Assembly (NCBI GenBank): GCA_000385875.2
Contig: KK365132.1
Span: 114,291-138,023 of the forward strand
Length of the DNA stretch: 23,733 nucleotides
Origin: Anncaliia algerae PRA339
Taxonomy: Eukaryota > Microsporidia > Tubulinosematidae
Direction of reading: 5' to 3'
Notes under the pieces: model-generated
Seen by the model: only the letters and a program-made list of their open reading frames with translations
Database searches by the model: none
Told to the model about the DNA's origin: nothing
Shown: positions 3,805 through 22,055 of the stretch, piece after piece
Layout of the letters: each line of letters opens with the position of its first letter
How positions within the stretch are numbered: position 1 is the stretch's first letter
Made by a program: the position numbers and the translations under genes

Positions 3805-3877
3805 CGAGCCTGACGGGATTTGAACCCGCAATCTCCTGATCCGTAGTCAGACGCCTTAGCCGTTGGGCCACAGACCC
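3805..3877 (-). tRNA. tRNA-Arg (anticodon ACG)
   Basis: The minus-strand sequence folds as a complete cloverleaf of 73 nt including the discriminator G. The acceptor stem is GGGTCTG paired with CAGGCTC (7 bp with two G-T wobbles). The D arm is GCCC...GGC, the anticodon stem is TCTGA/TCAGG with loop CTACGGA giving anticodon ACG (decoding CGU and, after deamination to inosine, CGC/CGA). The T arm is GCGGG-TTCAAAT-CCCGT. No intron is present. The internal B box GGTTCAAATCC is intact. Four T residues follow directly on the coding strand (3804-3801), a pol III terminator. It lies 39 bp downstream of the Jac1-like gene on the same strand. Confidence 0.97.
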
Positions 3878-5458: not shown

Positions 5459-5530
5459 GCCACCTTAGCTTAGTGGTAAAGCGCTAGTCTTGTAAACTAG
5501 AGAGCATGGGTTCGATCCCCATAGGTGGCT
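5459..5530 (+). tRNA. tRNA-Thr (anticodon TGT)
   Basis: A 72-nt cloverleaf with a perfect acceptor stem GCCACCT/AGGTGGC, D arm GC...GC containing the A box TAGCTTAGTGG, anticodon stem CTAGT/ACTAG with loop CTTGTAA giving anticodon TGT (ACA/ACG codons), and T arm ATGGG-TTCGATC-CCCAT containing the B box. There is no intron. The discriminator T is the first of five Ts (5530-5534), a pol III terminator. Confidence 0.98.
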
Positions 5531-5889: not shown

Positions 5890-7740
5890 ATGCCCTACAA
5901 GACTAGAATGGAATTTGATGGAGAATGTTACAAGCATGAACAATATATCCCTGTACTTGATAGAAGCCCAGACGGATCATCAACTGTTTTAGAAATATTG
6001 TTTAATAGGTATAAAAAAAAGAAAGATGGTAAAATATATGGTACAATCATTGAAGGAGAAATACTTTGGAGAACTACACAAGAAGTATTAATTGATCTTT
6101 TTAAGATAAGAAAATATTTGGCAAAGATTATAAACCCCCAAGAGATACTTGGTATTTATGCCATTAACAGATATGAATGGATACTTTCTGAGCATGTAAT
6201 ACATAGTTTGGGATGTATTTCCTCTCCCCTATATTCAACCTTTGGTGTTACTGCTGTTAAACATGTTTTGGATCAAACAGAAATGAAGACGTGTTTTTTA
6301 AGTGGAGAAAAAGCTGATTCATTATTTAATGACATCTTAAAGGATTCTAATACATTTCTTAAAAATTTAATTCTTTTTGATTCCTTCGAGAAACAAAAGG
6401 AAGTGGAGAAACTTGGAATCAACGTTCATTATTTACAAGATATACTTGACTCTGAGCATGTAGAACCAGAAGAACTTAGTGAGTTAATTGATGAAATTTA
6501 TAATTGGGAACATTATCCTGGAAATGATGATATTGCCACAATTTGCTACACATCTGGTACAACTGGCTTGCCTAAAGGAGTTATTTTAACAAATAAGAAT
6601 TTCATATCAACTATATCAGCATTCCAAAGATATACTGCTAAATATTCCTATTATAAATTATCAGAAACTGATGTTTTAATTTCTTATCTTCCTTTAACTC
6701 ATATTTTTGAAAGAATTGTTTTTTTAACAGCAATCTCTTTAGGAGGTAAAGTTGTATTTTACAGGGGAAATATTAAAGAGCTTGGAAATGATTATAAAAT
6801 TATACAACCTACTTTTGTAGCAGGTGTTCCCAGGGTATTTAATGTATTTAAAGATAAAATTATGGAAGAAGTTGGCAAAAAGGGGTACTTTACTCAATGG
6901 TTGTTTAAAAGAGCTCTACAATGGAAATATTTCTGGCAAAGATTTGGATACTATACTTCTTTCCTTGATTCTATTATTTTTAATAAAGTTAAGAAACAAT
7001 TTGGTGGTAAAATAAGAGCTATGTTATCAGGCGCAGCACCAATTTCTACAGATACCGTTAAATTTTTACAAGCCTGTTTTTCTTGTAAGATATTCCAGGG
7101 CTATGGTCAGACAGAAACTACTGCTGCTTGTATTGTTGCACCCATGGAAGAAACGACTGTTGATACGGTAGGAATACCTTTCCCACAAAATTTAATTAAG
7201 TTAGCACCAATCGGAGATAATAAATGTGAAATTTGGGTTAAAGGAGAAAATGTATTTAAAGGATACTATAAAAATGAAGAGGCTACTAAAGAATGTTTTG
7301 AGGACGGTTGGTTTAAGACAGGTGATATTGGTGAGGTTAAGAGTAACTTATTTAAGATAGTAGGAAGAAACAAAGAAATATTCAAAACAAGCCAAGGGGA
7401 ATACATAGTACCAGAAAAGGTAGAAAATATATACATGAATTCACTTATTGAAGATATTTTTATTGTAGGAAGATCTACAGAAGATTATATTGTTGCTATA
7501 GTAGTTTGCACTTCTAATGCATCCTCTGATTCTGTAATAAAGAAGATTTTAGATATTGGAAATAAAGCAGTCTATGATAAAAAAATACCAAGGTATGAAA
7601 TTCCTAGGAGGGTTTTAGTAAGGAGAACTCCTTTTACTGACTTTGGAGAAGTAATTACACCTACAGGTAAGAAGAAGAGAAATTTTTTAGAAAAGTGTCT
7701 TAAGAAAGAAATTGATGAATTATATTCAAAAAATAATTAA
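5890..7740 (+). CDS. Long-chain-fatty-acid--CoA ligase
   Basis: The 616-aa protein belongs to the ANL adenylating superfamily and most resembles eukaryotic long-chain acyl-CoA synthetases (ACSL/Faa). It activates fatty acids with ATP and CoA, giving acyl-CoA, AMP and PPi. The N-terminal region has a family-typical IYAINRYEW segment (about residues 109-117). The P-loop-like AMP-binding signature YTSGTTGLPKG is at residues 220-230, the aromatic-GQTE motif YGQTE at 405-409, and the fatty-acyl-CoA synthetase signature GWFKTGDIGE at 473-482, with the adenine-ribose-binding aspartate D479. GRNKEIFKTSQGEYIVPEKVE follows in the hinge. The C-terminal TGKKKRNFLEK contains candidate catalytic lysines. 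It is shorter than yeast Faa1 (700 aa), with no transmembrane segment and no C-terminal peroxisomal SKL-type signal (it ends SKNN). Substrate chain length is inferred from family only. Several paralogues are common in eukaryotes, so no yeast symbol is assigned. Confidence 0.95.
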   Translation: MPYKTRMEFDGECYKHEQYIPVLDRSPDGSSTVLEILFNRYKKKKDGKIYGTIIEGEILWRTTQEVLIDLFKIRKYLAKIINPQEILGIYAINRYEWILSEHVIHSLGCISSPLYSTFGVTAVKHVLDQTEMKTCFLSGEKADSLFNDILKDSNTFLKNLILFDSFEKQKEVEKLGINVHYLQDILDSEHVEPEELSELIDEIYNWEHYPGNDDIATICYTSGTTGLPKGVILTNKNFISTISAFQRYTAKYSYYKLSETDVLISYLPLTHIFERIVFLTAISLGGKVVFYRGNIKELGNDYKIIQPTFVAGVPRVFNVFKDKIMEEVGKKGYFTQWLFKRALQWKYFWQRFGYYTSFLDSIIFNKVKKQFGGKIRAMLSGAAPISTDTVKFLQACFSCKIFQGYGQTETTAACIVAPMEETTVDTVGIPFPQNLIKLAPIGDNKCEIWVKGENVFKGYYKNEEATKECFEDGWFKTGDIGEVKSNLFKIVGRNKEIFKTSQGEYIVPEKVENIYMNSLIEDIFIVGRSTEDYIVAIVVCTSNASSDSVIKKILDIGNKAVYDKKIPRYEIPRRVLVRRTPFTDFGEVITPTGKKKRNFLEKCLKKEIDELYSKNN

Positions 7741-10276: not shown

Positions 10277-11152
10277 TTAGGAAAATTCCTTTAAACCTGA
10301 GTTGTAATATATTTGATCAAGAGTATTAGAAATCAAGTATAAAAATATTTTTAAAACTAAAAATATTTCTCTTATCATGACAAACCTAATTAATATTTTA
10401 CTTACCTTTTAAAAAATCTGTGATAAACAGTACATATAGAAATATAATAGACTAAAATAGAAAATATGCAGCAACTAGATAATGTTTTTAAAGCATGATT
10501 CTCATCCTTATTAAAGAATGATAAAAATAGATCGGTTATAACCAAAATATACACTATTATGTTCAGTAGATATGATATTTTGTGTAAGCGAATTGTATAA
10601 ATTATTTTTATAAATACCCTACATATAAGAAACAGATAAAAGAGTATTCTGAATATTTTGTTACAAATTCTGATCTAATTAATTTTAACTTACCTTATAT
10701 GCTGTCTTTAGCATAGAATTCGCCCCAATCCTATCATTTAATTTAAAAAATATATTAGTTGAAGGCAAATATCTCAACTTATAGAAGATATAGCATGATT
10801 CAACTACCATAACCAACAAGCTTGCCATATTAATATATCCATATTTTTGAAACATTGTTATTAGCATCCCCGAAAGGATGATATATATTCTTAAGACTAT
10901 GTAAAAAAGTAAAGCCTCAAGGTTCTTTTGGATCATGGCATAAATTACAGATATAAATGAAATATAATTTGCCAAAAAGGCTAATTCCATGAAATGTATT
11001 AAAGAACAACATGGTTTTATACCCAAACTTCTATAGTATTCGATTGTTTTATGTGCATATACTAAGAATATACTTGTTTCTATCACATAAAATGATACAA
11101 TAATTAGTATAACATGGTTTATTTGTTTACTTCTCGCTCGTTGGTCTGACAT
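10277..11152 (-). CDS. Multi-pass membrane protein, three exons, two mini-introns
   Basis: Read on the minus strand as join(11152-10694, 10674-10406, 10385-10277). Exon 1 is open for 153 codons and then meets GTAAGT; unspliced it would stop two codons later. Removing 19 nt restores a frame open for 89 codons, up to a second GTAAGT. Removing 20 nt restores the frame again for 35 codons to TAA at 10279-10277. The spliced protein has 278 residues and about eight hydrophobic helices: residues 13-33, 51-73, 80-101, 107-126, 161-181, 187-207, 214-236 and 246-263. Four lie in exon 1 and four after it, with regular spacing across the junctions. It is probably an integral membrane protein of unknown function; no transporter motif is recognised. 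The start at 11152 (MSDQRARSKQ) is the first ATG of the frame and gives a short basic cytosolic-looking N-terminus. The unspliced reading gives a truncated 155-aa four-helix protein, which is the main alternative. Confidence 0.8.
10386..10405 (-). other. Spliceosomal intron 2, 20 nt
   Basis: On the minus strand the intron is GTAAGTAAAATATTAATTAG, 20 nt, phase 2 (it splits an AGG codon after AG). It shares donor GTAAGT and the whole 3' end TTAATTAG with intron 1. If retained, the codon after AGG is TAA. Confidence 0.75.
10675..10693 (-). other. Spliceosomal intron 1, 19 nt
   Basis: On the minus strand the intron is GTAAGTTAAAATTAATTAG, 19 nt, phase 0, after exon end AAG. It has a perfect GTAAGT donor, AG acceptor and a TTAAT element (possible branch site) within a few bases of the AG. 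If retained, it introduces TAA as its third codon. Its length is not a multiple of three. Confidence 0.8.
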
Positions 11153-12646: not shown

Positions 12647-13303
12647 TTAAAATAATAGACTAATAATATATAAATAGTATGTAACTAAANNNNNNNNNNN
12701 NNNNNNNNNNNNNNNNNNNNNNNNNNNNNNNNNNNNNNNNNNNNNNNNNNNNNNNNNNNNNNNNNNNNNNNNNNNNNNNNNNNNNNNNNATTCTCTAGTA
12801 TTAATGTCGATTCCGCCTACAACCCACGGACTTCTTGGAATTCTCCCGACATTATACTTTCTTTTACTAAATTTGCTTTCATCAATCTCAATTACATGCC
12901 CAGGTCCTCCTATTCTACCCCTCGAATTTTCTTTTAATATTATATAAGAAAGTTTTTGTAGCTTATTGTACCATTTACTAATTGTTTTATGTCCTGAGAA
13001 TTTTAGCTCGTGCATGACTTTCTGTTGATTTAAGTCTTGAGACCAGTAGTAAGCAAGATCTAGAAGCCTTGCTAAATCCAATTTATTGTTAAAAAATATG
13101 GTGTCCTTGAAAATAGAGGGAGCAGTAGAACAGGCTTTGCATTTCCATCTGAAAGTGTTCTTATATTCTATTAATCGCATATGACCCCCTAAACATTTTA
13201 TGCAGTTCTTTAAAACAGGTATAACTTCTATTTCCTGCAACCATTTTATAGTTTCGGCAAGATTAACCGTTTTTCCTACTAGTTCTCGATGCGTGATATT
13301 CAT
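12647..13303 (-). CDS. Merlin (DDE_Tnp_ISXO2-like) transposase, interrupted by gap
   Basis: 171 residues are readable before the gap, starting MNITHRELVG at 13303. A zinc ribbon C34-x2-C37...C54-x2-C57 (CIKC...CKAC) is followed by a helical region at about residues 75-125 (LDLAYYWSQDLNQQKVMHEL). The start of the DDE/DDN catalytic domain follows: GGPGHVIEIDESKFSKRKY with the first catalytic aspartate D141, then RGIPRS-like RIPRSPWVVGGID. The frame across 100 N and the 13 residues after it (12647-12689) is not meaningful: the remaining catalytic residues and the usual C-terminal part, roughly another 100 or more residues, are absent. Either the true gap is much larger than 100 bp or the element is internally deleted. 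Expression signals are not evident. Confidence 0.85.
   Translation of the reverse strand: MNITHRELVGKTVNLAETIKWLQEIEVIPVLKNCIKCLGGHMRLIEYKNTFRWKCKACSTAPSIFKDTIFFNNKLDLARLLDLAYYWSQDLNQQKVMHELKFSGHKTISKWYNKLQKLSYIILKENSRGRIGGPGHVIEIDESKFSKRKYNVGRIPRSPWVVGGIDINTREXXXXXXXXXXXXXXXXXXXXXXXXXXXXXXXXXXLVTYYLYIISLLF
12690..12789. other. Assembly gap, 100 N
   Basis: A run of exactly 100 undetermined bases, the conventional placeholder for a gap of unknown length. It lies inside a repetitive element, where scaffolding errors are common. Confidence 0.99.
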
Positions 13304-16587: not shown

Positions 16588-17850
16588 ATGCAGGAAGAAG
16601 AGAAAACAAATTTACCTAACCTAAAAGAGATCTGCAATGCAAAATACCAAAATCCAAAATTCGTATATGATGGAAAGAGAATGAGAGTCCTAACTGTGAG
16701 AAGAACTCTGGACTATGCATCGGCTTATGTATACAGAAAGTATTTTAAAAAACCTATGCCAATATGTATTGACAGCACATCCTTTTTAGGGCTGCAGCCG
16801 GACCCTGCAAAAAAATATTCTAATGAAAGCCAAATTTTATACATGAAAGAGCCTTTATTTTGTGAACCTAAAGAAGCTATAACTAGTGAATTCGCGCATA
16901 TTTCAATTAACAAAATAAAATGTCCTATAAATGTTGTAAAATATACCCCAGATGGAAGAAGGCTTATGTCGGGCACTTCAACGGGCGAATTCACACTTTG
17001 GAATGCATTTAGCTTTAATTTTGAAACCATCTTACAAGCCCATGAATCTCCTGTTAGAAGTCTTTGTTGGTCACCTAGCGGGAAATTTTTAGTTAGCGGT
17101 GATTCTTTAGGAATTATGAAGTTTTGGCATCCTTCGATGTTGAATTTATTGAAAATTGATGCACACAATGAGCCTGTGAGAGATATTTCATTTTCATCAT
17201 CGGATAGCAAATTTTGCACAGCTTCTGATGACGGTACCATTAAAATATGGGACTCAAAGGAATCAAAAGAGGAAGGACAACTTAAAGGCCACGGTTGGGA
17301 TGTAAGAGTAGCACAATGGCATCCTGAATATTCTTTAATTGCTTCTGGAGGCAAAGATAACCTAGTAAAATTATGGGATCCACGAGTTAAAAAAGAACTT
17401 AATACACTTCATATACATAGAAATACCATTTTGGCTCTTCAATGGTCTAAGGATGGTAAATATTTACTTTCTGGAGGGAAGGATCAGGTTGTTAAGAAGT
17501 TTGATTTAAGAGCCTTTGAAGAAATTTTTTCCTATAAGAATCATAAGAAAGAGGTTACTGCTATTTGCTTACACCCTAATATTGATAGTCTGTTTGTATC
17601 AGCAAGCTCAGAAGGCGGATTGTATTTTTGGGAAATGTTTGATGAGAATCCTCTGAAGATAGTAAATCAAGCACATGACAACACAATATGGGGTTTAGAT
17701 TTTCATCCATTAGGCCATGTTTTGGCTTCAGGGTCAATTGACAATTCAGTGAGATTCTGGGTCAGAGAACGTCCTAATAAAATTATTGAGTCTAAGATTA
17801 AAAGCATAGAAGATAAAGAAAGAATTCCCGGTTTAAATATATTTGAATGA
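16588..17850 (+). CDS. PFS2: Pfs2/WDR33-type WD40 polyadenylation factor subunit
   Basis: The 420-aa protein has seven WD40 repeats and the N-terminal segment diagnostic for Pfs2 (yeast) and WDR33 (animals), a scaffold of the cleavage and polyadenylation factor that recognises pre-mRNA 3' ends in the nucleus. The diagnostic segment is DGKRMRVLTVRRTLDYASAY at residues 28-47, rich in basic residues as in the RNA-contacting part of WDR33. Repeats lie at about residues 108-140, 151-181, 192-222, 234-264, 277-306, 319-349 and 362-392. Each has GH- or AH-like starts and W/F-D-like ends, the best being IKIWD and VKLWD. It is slightly shorter than yeast Pfs2 (465 aa) and lacks the long C-terminal tail of WDR33. 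The frame is unbroken. The start is the first ATG, with A/T-only upstream sequence and no CCC motif. It is the clearest orthologue assignment in the window together with ribonucleotide reductase. Confidence 0.92.
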   Translation: MQEEEKTNLPNLKEICNAKYQNPKFVYDGKRMRVLTVRRTLDYASAYVYRKYFKKPMPICIDSTSFLGLQPDPAKKYSNESQILYMKEPLFCEPKEAITSEFAHISINKIKCPINVVKYTPDGRRLMSGTSTGEFTLWNAFSFNFETILQAHESPVRSLCWSPSGKFLVSGDSLGIMKFWHPSMLNLLKIDAHNEPVRDISFSSSDSKFCTASDDGTIKIWDSKESKEEGQLKGHGWDVRVAQWHPEYSLIASGGKDNLVKLWDPRVKKELNTLHIHRNTILALQWSKDGKYLLSGGKDQVVKKFDLRAFEEIFSYKNHKKEVTAICLHPNIDSLFVSASSEGGLYFWEMFDENPLKIVNQAHDNTIWGLDFHPLGHVLASGSIDNSVRFWVRERPNKIIESKIKSIEDKERIPGLNIFE

Positions 17851-19679: not shown

Positions 19680-22055
19680 TTATGCACTACATGACTCACA
19701 GTTCTCATCATCCAAGGAACATGTAGAAAGAGACTTAACTGTTTGGTTTAACAATTCTTTATCAACTGTAAACTTAATAGCAGATGACTTAGGTTGTGTT
19801 CTTAGGTAATACATTCCTGTCTTTAATCCATTCTTCCAACCATAGAAATGCATACTAGTAAGCTGCTGCATTGTTGGGCTACTCATAAAAATATTTAAGG
19901 ACTGAGTCTGATCAATAAATGGTCCTCTACCAACTGATAAATCAATAATACTCTTCATTTTATACTCCCATACTGTTTTATATATGTCTCTTATTTCTTT
20001 AGGTATTATGGGTATGTTTTGAATAGATCCTTCATTCTGAATCAATAAATTTTTGATTTCATTGTTCCACAATCCTCTTTCTATTAAATCCTTCAATAAA
20101 TGTTTATTAATTACTTGGTATTCTCCAGCCAATGTTCTTCTTGTGTAAATGTTAGAAGTAAATGGTTCAATGCATTCATTAAACCCAAGTATCTGTGAGG
20201 TAGTTGCTGTTGGCATACAAGCAGTTAACAAAGAATTCCTTACTCCATGTTTAATGATTTTACTTCTAAGAGACTCCCAATCTAAATGACTATTAGGTTT
20301 AACATTCCACATATCAAATTGAAATTCTCCTTTAGAAAGAGGTGATCCTTCAAAGGATGAATAAGCTCCTTCTTCTATAGCCAATAGGTTACTCTCTTCT
20401 AATGCTGCATAGTAAATACATTCAAAGATATTTCTATTTAATACTTTAGCTTCCTCTGAATCAAATGATATTTTAAGCATGGCAAATAAATCAGCTAAGC
20501 CTTGTACTCCAATACCAATGGGTCTATGCTTAATGTTGCTACTTTTTGCTTCAACTACAGGATAAAAATTGTAATCAATTATTTTGTTTAAATTTCTACA
20601 AATAACCTTTGTTACTTCCATTAATTTAGAAAAATCATAGAAAAAGGGAGAATTATTTTTCAAATTAAGTTTTTCATTGATTTCATTTCTTAAAAGTGCT
20701 TCATTTGATTCTCTTTTTACTAAGAAGGAAGGTAAAGCAATGCTTGCTAAGTTACAAACTGCTACTTCATTCTCACTGGTAAATTCTAAGATTTCTGCGC
20801 ATAAGTTACTTCCTTTTATTATTCCTAAGTTCTTTTGGTTGTTTTTTTTATTACAGCTGTCTTTATAAAGAATGTATGGAGTACCTGTCTCTATCTGTGC
20901 TTCAATAATTGCTCTCCATAATTTCTGGGCTGGTATTCTTTTCCATACTTTATTTTCTTTCTCATATTTCTCATATAAATTATCAAATTCATCACCATAA
21001 ACTTCAGACAATCCCTTTGCAATATTTGGACAGAATAAACACCAATCTTCATTTTTTTCCACCTTCTTCATAAATAAATCAGGAACCCAAAGTGCTGTGA
21101 AAATACTTCTACTTCTCATCTCTTCTTTTCCTGTATTTTTTCTTAAATCTAAAAATTCAAGTATTTCTGGATGCCATGGCTCAAGGAAAAATGCTATTGA
21201 TGAAGCTCTTTTGTTTCCACACTGTGAAATAAATTTAGACATTGCTTCAAATACTTTTATCATAGGAATTATACCATTGGACGTTCCTCCTGTTGAAAGG
21301 GGAGAGCCTCTGGCTCTGATATGAGAAATGTTCACACCAATTCCTCCTGCCATTTTAGCTATGTGTGTACATTGTGTTAGTGTATCAAAAATTCCTTTTG
21401 CTGAATCATCCTTAATTGTGAGAAGAAAACAACTACTCATCTGGGTTTTATTGCTTCCTGCATTAAAAAGTGATGGTGTAGCATGTATAAAGTATTTATT
21501 ACTCATCAATTCATAAGTCTCTTTTACTTTCTCAAAATTCTCTCTATGTATAAAAACACTTACTCTTAAAAATAGATCTTGAGGTCTTTCAATTACCTCT
21601 CCATAAGAAAGCAGGTACCCCTTAAGGAGTGTTCTCAGTCCGAAAAAAGAAATAAGATTATCTCTTTTGTAATCTATTAATTTATCATAGGCTTCTTTAT
21701 TTTTACATACCAGATTATAGAAATCCTCTGAAATATACCTAGTGTTTTTGTATAAAAGAATGATCTTCTCTGAAAATGAATTGCTTGTAGATTTATGCAA
21801 AGATGAAACCAGTATTCTTGAAGCCAACACACCAAAATCAGGATGTAAAGACATGCAAGATGCTGCAGTTTCTGCAGAATACTCACATAATTCAGTTGTG
21901 GTCATGTTATTTACTATTCCCAGCATAATCTTATCCACAAATTCATTGGGATTGATATTCTTTGTATCTAATCCACATGTGTGTGCTTGTATTGACTTAA
22001 GCAATTTACTTCTGTCAAATGGTCTTGGCTCATTATTTCTTTTAATTATGAACAT
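19680..22055 (-). CDS. RNR1: Ribonucleoside-diphosphate reductase large subunit (class Ia R1)
   Basis: The 791-aa protein reduces NDPs to dNDPs with the R2 radical subunit, supplying DNA precursors. Residues 1-90 form the ATP-cone allosteric domain (MFIIKRNNEPRPFDRSKLLK at the start). The redox-active cysteines C209 (in SSCFLL) and C434 (in VAVCNLASI) pair, and the radical site NLCAE gives N417, C419 and E421. The PTATTS phosphate loop is at 615-620, and radical-transfer tyrosines Y749-Y750 are in GMYYLRTQ. The C-terminal cysteines C786 and C789 (CESC), which re-reduce the active site, are present. All catalytic residues are intact. Length is close to yeast Rnr1 (888 aa) minus its tail. Loop 2, which governs substrate specificity, reads QCGNKRASS where most eukaryotes have QGGNKRPGA. 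The start is chosen at the first ATG, with CCC five to seven bases upstream. The R2 gene is not in this window. Confidence 0.97.
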   Translation of the reverse strand: MFIIKRNNEPRPFDRSKLLKSIQAHTCGLDTKNINPNEFVDKIMLGIVNNMTTTELCEYSAETAASCMSLHPDFGVLASRILVSSLHKSTSNSFSEKIILLYKNTRYISEDFYNLVCKNKEAYDKLIDYKRDNLISFFGLRTLLKGYLLSYGEVIERPQDLFLRVSVFIHRENFEKVKETYELMSNKYFIHATPSLFNAGSNKTQMSSCFLLTIKDDSAKGIFDTLTQCTHIAKMAGGIGVNISHIRARGSPLSTGGTSNGIIPMIKVFEAMSKFISQCGNKRASSIAFFLEPWHPEILEFLDLRKNTGKEEMRSRSIFTALWVPDLFMKKVEKNEDWCLFCPNIAKGLSEVYGDEFDNLYEKYEKENKVWKRIPAQKLWRAIIEAQIETGTPYILYKDSCNKKNNQKNLGIIKGSNLCAEILEFTSENEVAVCNLASIALPSFLVKRESNEALLRNEINEKLNLKNNSPFFYDFSKLMEVTKVICRNLNKIIDYNFYPVVEAKSSNIKHRPIGIGVQGLADLFAMLKISFDSEEAKVLNRNIFECIYYAALEESNLLAIEEGAYSSFEGSPLSKGEFQFDMWNVKPNSHLDWESLRSKIIKHGVRNSLLTACMPTATTSQILGFNECIEPFTSNIYTRRTLAGEYQVINKHLLKDLIERGLWNNEIKNLLIQNEGSIQNIPIIPKEIRDIYKTVWEYKMKSIIDLSVGRGPFIDQTQSLNIFMSSPTMQQLTSMHFYGWKNGLKTGMYYLRTQPKSSAIKFTVDKELLNQTVKSLSTCSLDDENCESCSA

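Follow-up and report, generated by a model that had tools for sequence, protein, structure and literature searches.

Two putative introns of 19 and 20 nt in a membrane-protein gene of the microsporidian Anncaliia algerae, shared across a nine-gene family

The stretch of DNA analysed here (23,733 nucleotides, henceforth the window) corresponds to C3:114291-138023 in the 5.6-Mb, 78-contig genome of Anncaliia algerae PRA339, and its features are collected in Table 1. An additional ORF with a masked stretch, at window positions 12647-13303 on the minus strand, resembles by eye an ISXO2/Merlin-like transposase. The gene that concerns us occupies positions 10277-11152 on the minus strand, where a 278-codon gene with candidate introns of 19 nt and 20 nt was read from the sequence. 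A preliminary description of this segment had proposed two GTAAGT...TTAATTAG units on the minus strand, and these lie, exact to the base, at 10693-10675 and 10405-10386. That splicing them turns a 155-codon ORF into a gene of 278 codons was confirmed from the exon lengths and frames—the unspliced frame runs for 155 codons and stops two codons into the first intron—and retention of either intron does bring in an early in-frame stop, as had been claimed. The suggested microsporidian source also agrees with the best protein matches, which come from A. algerae PRA109.

Table 1. Features of the window (window positions) and candidate introns elsewhere in the genome (contig:positions).
Feature	Location	Strand	Details
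tRNA-Arg	3805-3877	-	
tRNA-Thr	5459-5530	+	
AMP-binding (acyl-CoA synthetase-like) gene	5890-7740	+	
Exon 3	10277-10385	-	109 nt including stop codon; leave-one-out HMM E 1.7e-10, spliced frame
Intron 2 (candidate)	10386-10405	-	20 nt, GTAAGTAAAATATTAATTAG, phase 2; if retained, stop after 1 codon
Exon 2	10406-10674	-	269 nt (family range 266-272 nt); leave-one-out HMM E 1.2e-12, spliced frame
Intron 1 (candidate)	10675-10693	-	19 nt, GTAAGTTAAAATTAATTAG; if retained, stop after 2 codons
Exon 1	10694-11152	-	459 nt (153 codons) from the ATG at 11152; phase 0 at its 3' end
WD40 protein gene	16588-17850	+	
Ribonucleotide reductase large subunit gene	19680-22055	-	
Family member C43_4, intron 1	C43:17324-17343		20 nt, ends TAATTTG
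Family member C2_b, intron 1	C2:280005-280024		20 nt, ends TAATTTG
Family member C2_c, intron 2	C2:273916-273936		21 nt, ends TAATTTG
eL37 intron	C8:183471-183490		20 nt, directly after start codon; PF01907 E 1.5e-20
eL39 intron	C2:313989-314008		20 nt, directly after start codon; PF00832 E 4.1e-13
Candidate intron	C6:224483-224501		19 nt; open frames joined; gene without significant Pfam match
Candidate intron	C2:18680-18698		19 nt; open frames joined; gene without significant Pfam match
Candidate intron	C18:57063-57082		20 nt, donor GTAAGA; open frames joined; gene without significant Pfam match

The frames that follow the two acceptors stay open for 89 and 35 codons, as first described, in DNA of 24.2% GC, where base composition predicts a stop every 11.2 codons (the earlier estimate was about 11). 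Open runs of this kind would arise by chance with p ~2e-4 and p ~0.04, respectively, so that, taken alone, the open frames of exons 2 and 3 are only suggestive to moderately telling. The introns of the window gene are settled instead by its paralogues, which share them.

We identified a family of nine members, comprising the window gene, five genes in tandem on contig C43 and three on C2 (~273.8-285.1 kb). All nine carry a phase 0 intron after exon 1 and a phase 2 intron 266-272 nt later; in each of the eight paralogues, intron 1 (19-20 nt) and intron 2 (19-21 nt) lie at positions matching those of the window gene, and the 18 family introns measure 19 nt (nine), 20 nt (six) or 21 nt (three). 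The spliced products are 270-288 residues long and share 20-30% identity with the window protein; ten residues are invariant across the nine (G44, E118, N139, R162, Y166, D201, E211, K216, Y259 and G273, window numbering), seven of which are encoded by exons 2-3. What the data show directly are the sequence, positions and spliced frames of the window gene, and a two-intron layout common to nine divergent paralogues. The preliminary description had called a pair of introns in one gene unusual for this group; the pair is indeed present, but it is the trait of a nine-gene family rather than of one odd gene. The refutation named there, orthologues that end at the exon-1 stop and lack the later exons, does not apply within this genome, where each of the nine members found has exons 2 and 3. 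Both introns would be older than the family expansion, given their presence in every member.

A tblastn search with exon 1 of the window gene recovered the query itself and all five members on C43 but missed those on C2. With the C2_c protein as query, the C2 members and three of the five C43 members were recovered, but the window gene was missed. No tenth member was seen in genome searches with these two queries, although a more divergent copy could escape them. In the phylogenetic tree, the C43 and C2 members form separate supported groups, while the window gene sits on a long branch of unsure placement. Among ~5.8 billion proteins, relatives were limited to four entries from A. algerae PRA109, plus three unnamed ORFs. 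This distribution, together with the arrangement as two clusters plus a single copy, suggests that the family is a lineage-specific expansion.

The main proof of the spliced model comes from leave-one-out profiles built from the eight other members and run against the 910 stop-to-stop pieces of the window. These profiles matched window positions 10674-10405 (exon 2) and 10408-10280 (exon 3) at the E-values given in Table 1, the next best matches standing at 0.061 and 0.12, respectively, and both exons were matched solely in the predicted spliced frames.

The genome-wide search called for in the preliminary description, with the strict motif GTAAGTN{2,8}TTAATTAG, returned 15 matches versus two for a reversed-pattern control. 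All 15 join open frames—two in the window gene, ten in its paralogues (hence 12 in the family) and three in other genes. Looser patterns were less distinct by count: a motif admitting introns of up to 29 nt gave 21 matches versus 10 in the control, and one with any base before the last G (TAATTNG) gave 25 versus 10. Four of the six matches that the up-to-29-nt search added to the 15 join frames as introns of 19-21 nt; the other two, of 15 nt (C11:116772) and 26 nt (C1:557499; in the best phase, open for 27 codons upstream and 62 downstream), gave no convincing junction of frames. They were counted as chance, as were C59:21501 and C69:13549 for the same reason. No longer intron convincingly joining frames was found genome-wide with the motif allowing up to 29 nt. 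A further pattern that admits other donors, GTAWGVN{2,10}TAATTWG, produced 23 matches versus 16 in the control; five of the 23 places were inspected, and one of the five, C18:57063, joins open frames. An ATG-anchored pattern produced five matches versus nine, the introns of eL37 and eL39 being two of the five. Since all these searches were motif-based, introns with other motifs may exist.

In total, we count 23 intron candidates (11 of 19 nt, nine of 20 nt and three of 21 nt), 18 of which belong to the nine-gene family. Among the remainder, those at C6:224483, C2:18680 and C18:57063 were called on open frames only. A by-eye assignment of the C6:224483 gene to a Tim17/22-type protein had no Pfam support and was dropped. 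GTAAG is present in all 23 candidates and GTAAGT in 22, which is partly by construction, as the searches required the donor; TAATT, also in all 23, is again partly a product of the search, but within the family it was fixed independently by the paralogue alignment. The final G is invariant, a terminal AG occurs in 20 of the 23 (including both window introns), and the intron interiors have a GC content of 4.6%. Removal of the family introns restores a reading frame that is conserved in the family alignment and profiles.

With respect to the product, hydropathy analysis yielded eight TM-like segments in the window protein, in line with the roughly eight helices first described, and five to seven in the eight other members. 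An AlphaFold model of the half encoded by exon 1 (mean pLDDT 82.2, pTM 0.71) consists of four long helices (residues 2-42, 49-75, 78-99 and 105-128). A fold comparison of this model gave no clear match, the rows being generic helical bundles; a PDB sequence search returned nothing better than E 1.5, and Pfam had no match in the window protein and three weak matches across the nine members, in one member each, with E 0.04 or worse. The prediction of a polytopic membrane protein holds up. Three of the invariant residues, E118, R162 and D201, are charged and lie inside TM-like segments; these would suit a transporter, channel or receptor, a role that we offer as a guess.

The genome also contains a U2 snRNA gene at C44:42359-42544, which scores 66.5 bits against an Rfam cut-off of 46, includes GUGUAGUAUCUGUUC and has a stable predicted fold (z -5.3). 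Rfam U6 and two Prp8 Pfam domains had no match in the genome—nor in the control genomes—and a U6 core pattern gave 0 matches. Taken together, the sequence data make it very probable that the segment is one protein-coding gene with two U2-type spliceosomal introns of 19 and 20 nt and a 278-residue polytopic membrane protein as its product. In the mechanism we propose, a reduced spliceosome would read GTAAGT as the donor and, at the 3' end, (T)TAATTAG as a block in which branch site and acceptor are fused. The branch A would probably be the base at -5, and the length would be pinned at 19-21 nt, with 6-8 nearly pure A/T bases between donor and block. Donor, branch block and acceptor would take up 13 of the 19-21 bases, and a polypyrimidine tract would have no room, since the branch A presumably lies at -5. 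Recognition would then depend on base pairing, of U1/U6 with GTAAGT and of U2 with TAATT. Less surely, distance from TAATT might be the main determinant of the acceptor, in which case a T could be tolerated at -2. An unspliced message would stop in intron 1 and give a half-length protein only.

The Anncaliia introns belong to the microsporidian short class, at its short end. Introns of E. cuniculi measure ~23-76 nt. Short introns in Encephalitozoon, Trachipleistophora and Vavraia share the GTAAGT-type donor and a TAATT close to the AG, and some microsporidian short introns directly follow the start codon of ribosomal protein genes, as in eL37 and eL39 here. Unlike the introns of those three genera, the ones described here are uniform at 19-21 nt and, in some cases, end in TG, and most of them come in internal pairs, two to each gene of a membrane-protein family. 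The search motif given for T. hominis in PMC3486916, GTA[AG]GT..TAATT N0-4 AG, covers all AG-ended introns found here except the one with a GTAAGA donor. The initial view that 19-20 nt is the extreme low end for any eukaryote was right in that these introns are near the lower end, but introns of 15-17 nt are known, as compiled in PMC10245619. That compilation lists chlorarachniophyte nucleomorph introns of 18-21 nt, a size match to those of Anncaliia, and likewise narrow, near-minimum ranges in mikrocytids (16-17 nt, with conserved sequence) and heterotrich ciliates (15-16 nt). Intron numbers in these different lineages are far higher than the 23 found here: 224 in Mikrocytos mackini and >800 in the nucleomorph (PMC10245619). 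In Stentor, >8,000 introns have been counted.

Could the motifs be chance A/T strings and the exons separate ORFs? The DNA is very AT-rich, GTAAGTN{2,10}TAATTAG would be expected ~11 times in 5.6 Mb under independent bases (versus 20 observed), and the reversed control for the TAATTNG search itself matched 10 times. Yet eighteen motifs fall at two homologous positions in nine genes, 22 of the 25 TAATTNG matches sit at frame-joining positions and just three outside them, and the identical intron type recurs in eL37 and eL39. We therefore regard this reading as already refuted by positional homology, with a negligible probability. Only slightly more credit is due to the idea, which we judge very unlikely, that introns real in the family ancestor are hardly spliced today, or not at all, so that the gene yields a half protein of 155 residues, the form given in the PRA109 annotation. 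It draws on the poor splicing seen for short introns elsewhere in the microsporidia—six of eight motif-predicted introns unspliced in Spraguea (PMC3749934), all but one of 85 in T. hominis (PMC4654818) and a median efficiency of 25.3% in V. culicis (PMC4435813)—as well as on the PRA109 annotation, which ends at the exon-1 stop, and on three family acceptors without AG. The Spraguea and T. hominis data count against splicing here, as does the published label of A. algerae as intronless (PMC8476143); the RNA-seq-supported introns in 27 genes of V. culicis (PMC4435813) count for it, and the unspliced Spraguea introns described in PMC3749934 adjoined the start codon in frame, from which the two in the window differ. 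Moreover, the splice motifs are nearly invariant, and in every one of the nine members exons 2 and 3 have kept open frames whose alignment is frame-specific despite deep divergence, which requires selection on the spliced product.

The spliced model thus retained, three of its 18 family introns (Table 1) end in TAATTTG instead of TAATTAG, and the homologous frame requires these TG ends. One explanation, to which we give a somewhat better than even chance, is that they are broken splice sites in decaying copies, or that another AG is used, rather than true GT-TG introns. AG dinucleotides were scanned up to 110 nt from the start of each TG-ended intron. In C2_c intron 2, an in-frame AG would define a 30-nt intron at the cost of three residues, and in C2_b intron 1 an in-frame AG at 89 nt would drop 23; however, the nearest AG in the latter (25 nt) shifts the frame, and the single AG of C43_4 intron 1, at 73 nt, is out of frame, with none in the 50 nt after the intron. 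TG-ended motifs are not in genome-wide excess either (four matches in the TAATTNG search versus ~11 expected from base composition), and the case for them rests on position, not counts. Against decay, the downstream frames are intact after all three introns, and the identical A-to-T change occurred in each while their relatives' lineages retain AG. These changes look independent, given that AG is retained in the sister copies and that the C43 and C2 genes fall into separate groups. Furthermore, the PRA109 orthologue of C2_b, differing at 9 of 141 residues, has Trp at the matching place of the unspliced translation (...MLIWLDI); as TGG is the sole Trp codon, the protein implies that the T at the acceptor was probably retained there. 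The alternative is that Anncaliia possesses GT-TG introns with TG as sole acceptor, in which the 3' splice site would be set by a fixed distance from TAATT, with T or A at -2, and the AG rule would be relaxed in very short microsporidian introns; we put this forward tentatively, as a possibility with roughly half the weight of decay or another AG. Human U2-type introns offer a likeness in TG 3' splice sites with T at acceptor position -2, but these, as described in the text of PMC2374985, are used solely beside a usable AG within 28 nt, which C43_4 intron 1 does not have.

The public protein record bears on how such introns could have been overlooked. Between H311_00686 of PRA109 and exon 1 of the window gene, 10 of 153 residues differ. 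The entry is listed as 155 aa with ...AYKVS at its end, and the final two of these residues come from translation of the intron. This public orthologue, seen as a protein entry, does end at the exon-1 stop, which fits an annotation running into the intron. Indeed, all three PRA109 entries that extend to the exon 1 boundary, one of them partial, run into intron 1 and stop in it or just past it, and these proteins are 93-99% identical to exon 1 of three family members. Lim et al. 2021 named A. algerae as an example devoid of introns (PMC8476143), and the halved PRA109 gene models may partly explain this label. The gene set of PMC4435813 included A. algerae; the splicing losses listed in its text are those of E. 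aedis, Nematocida and the Ent. bieneusi/V. corneae ancestor, A. algerae not being named among them, and its splicing machinery may already be on record in a figure of that study. In the openly accessible literature searched, we found no report of introns in Anncaliia. As far as that literature goes, three points are new: introns in this genus, their occurrence in pairs in each gene of a nine-gene family, and the possible sole GT-TG ends.

The genome of a species called intronless would accordingly hold at least 23 good candidates of 19-21 nt, 18 in one nine-gene family whose public membrane-protein gene models are cut in half. Both intron-loss reconstructions and gene models for the human- and mosquito-infecting Anncaliia would need revision, and the TG-ended introns offer a direct, cheap test of 3' splice site choice by a minimal spliceosome. 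Finally, the window gene is represented in PRA109 by two distinct versions—H311_00686 and the partial H311_01330, which differs from the window exon 1 at 4 of 109 residues—and these would fit diverged homeologues or alleles.
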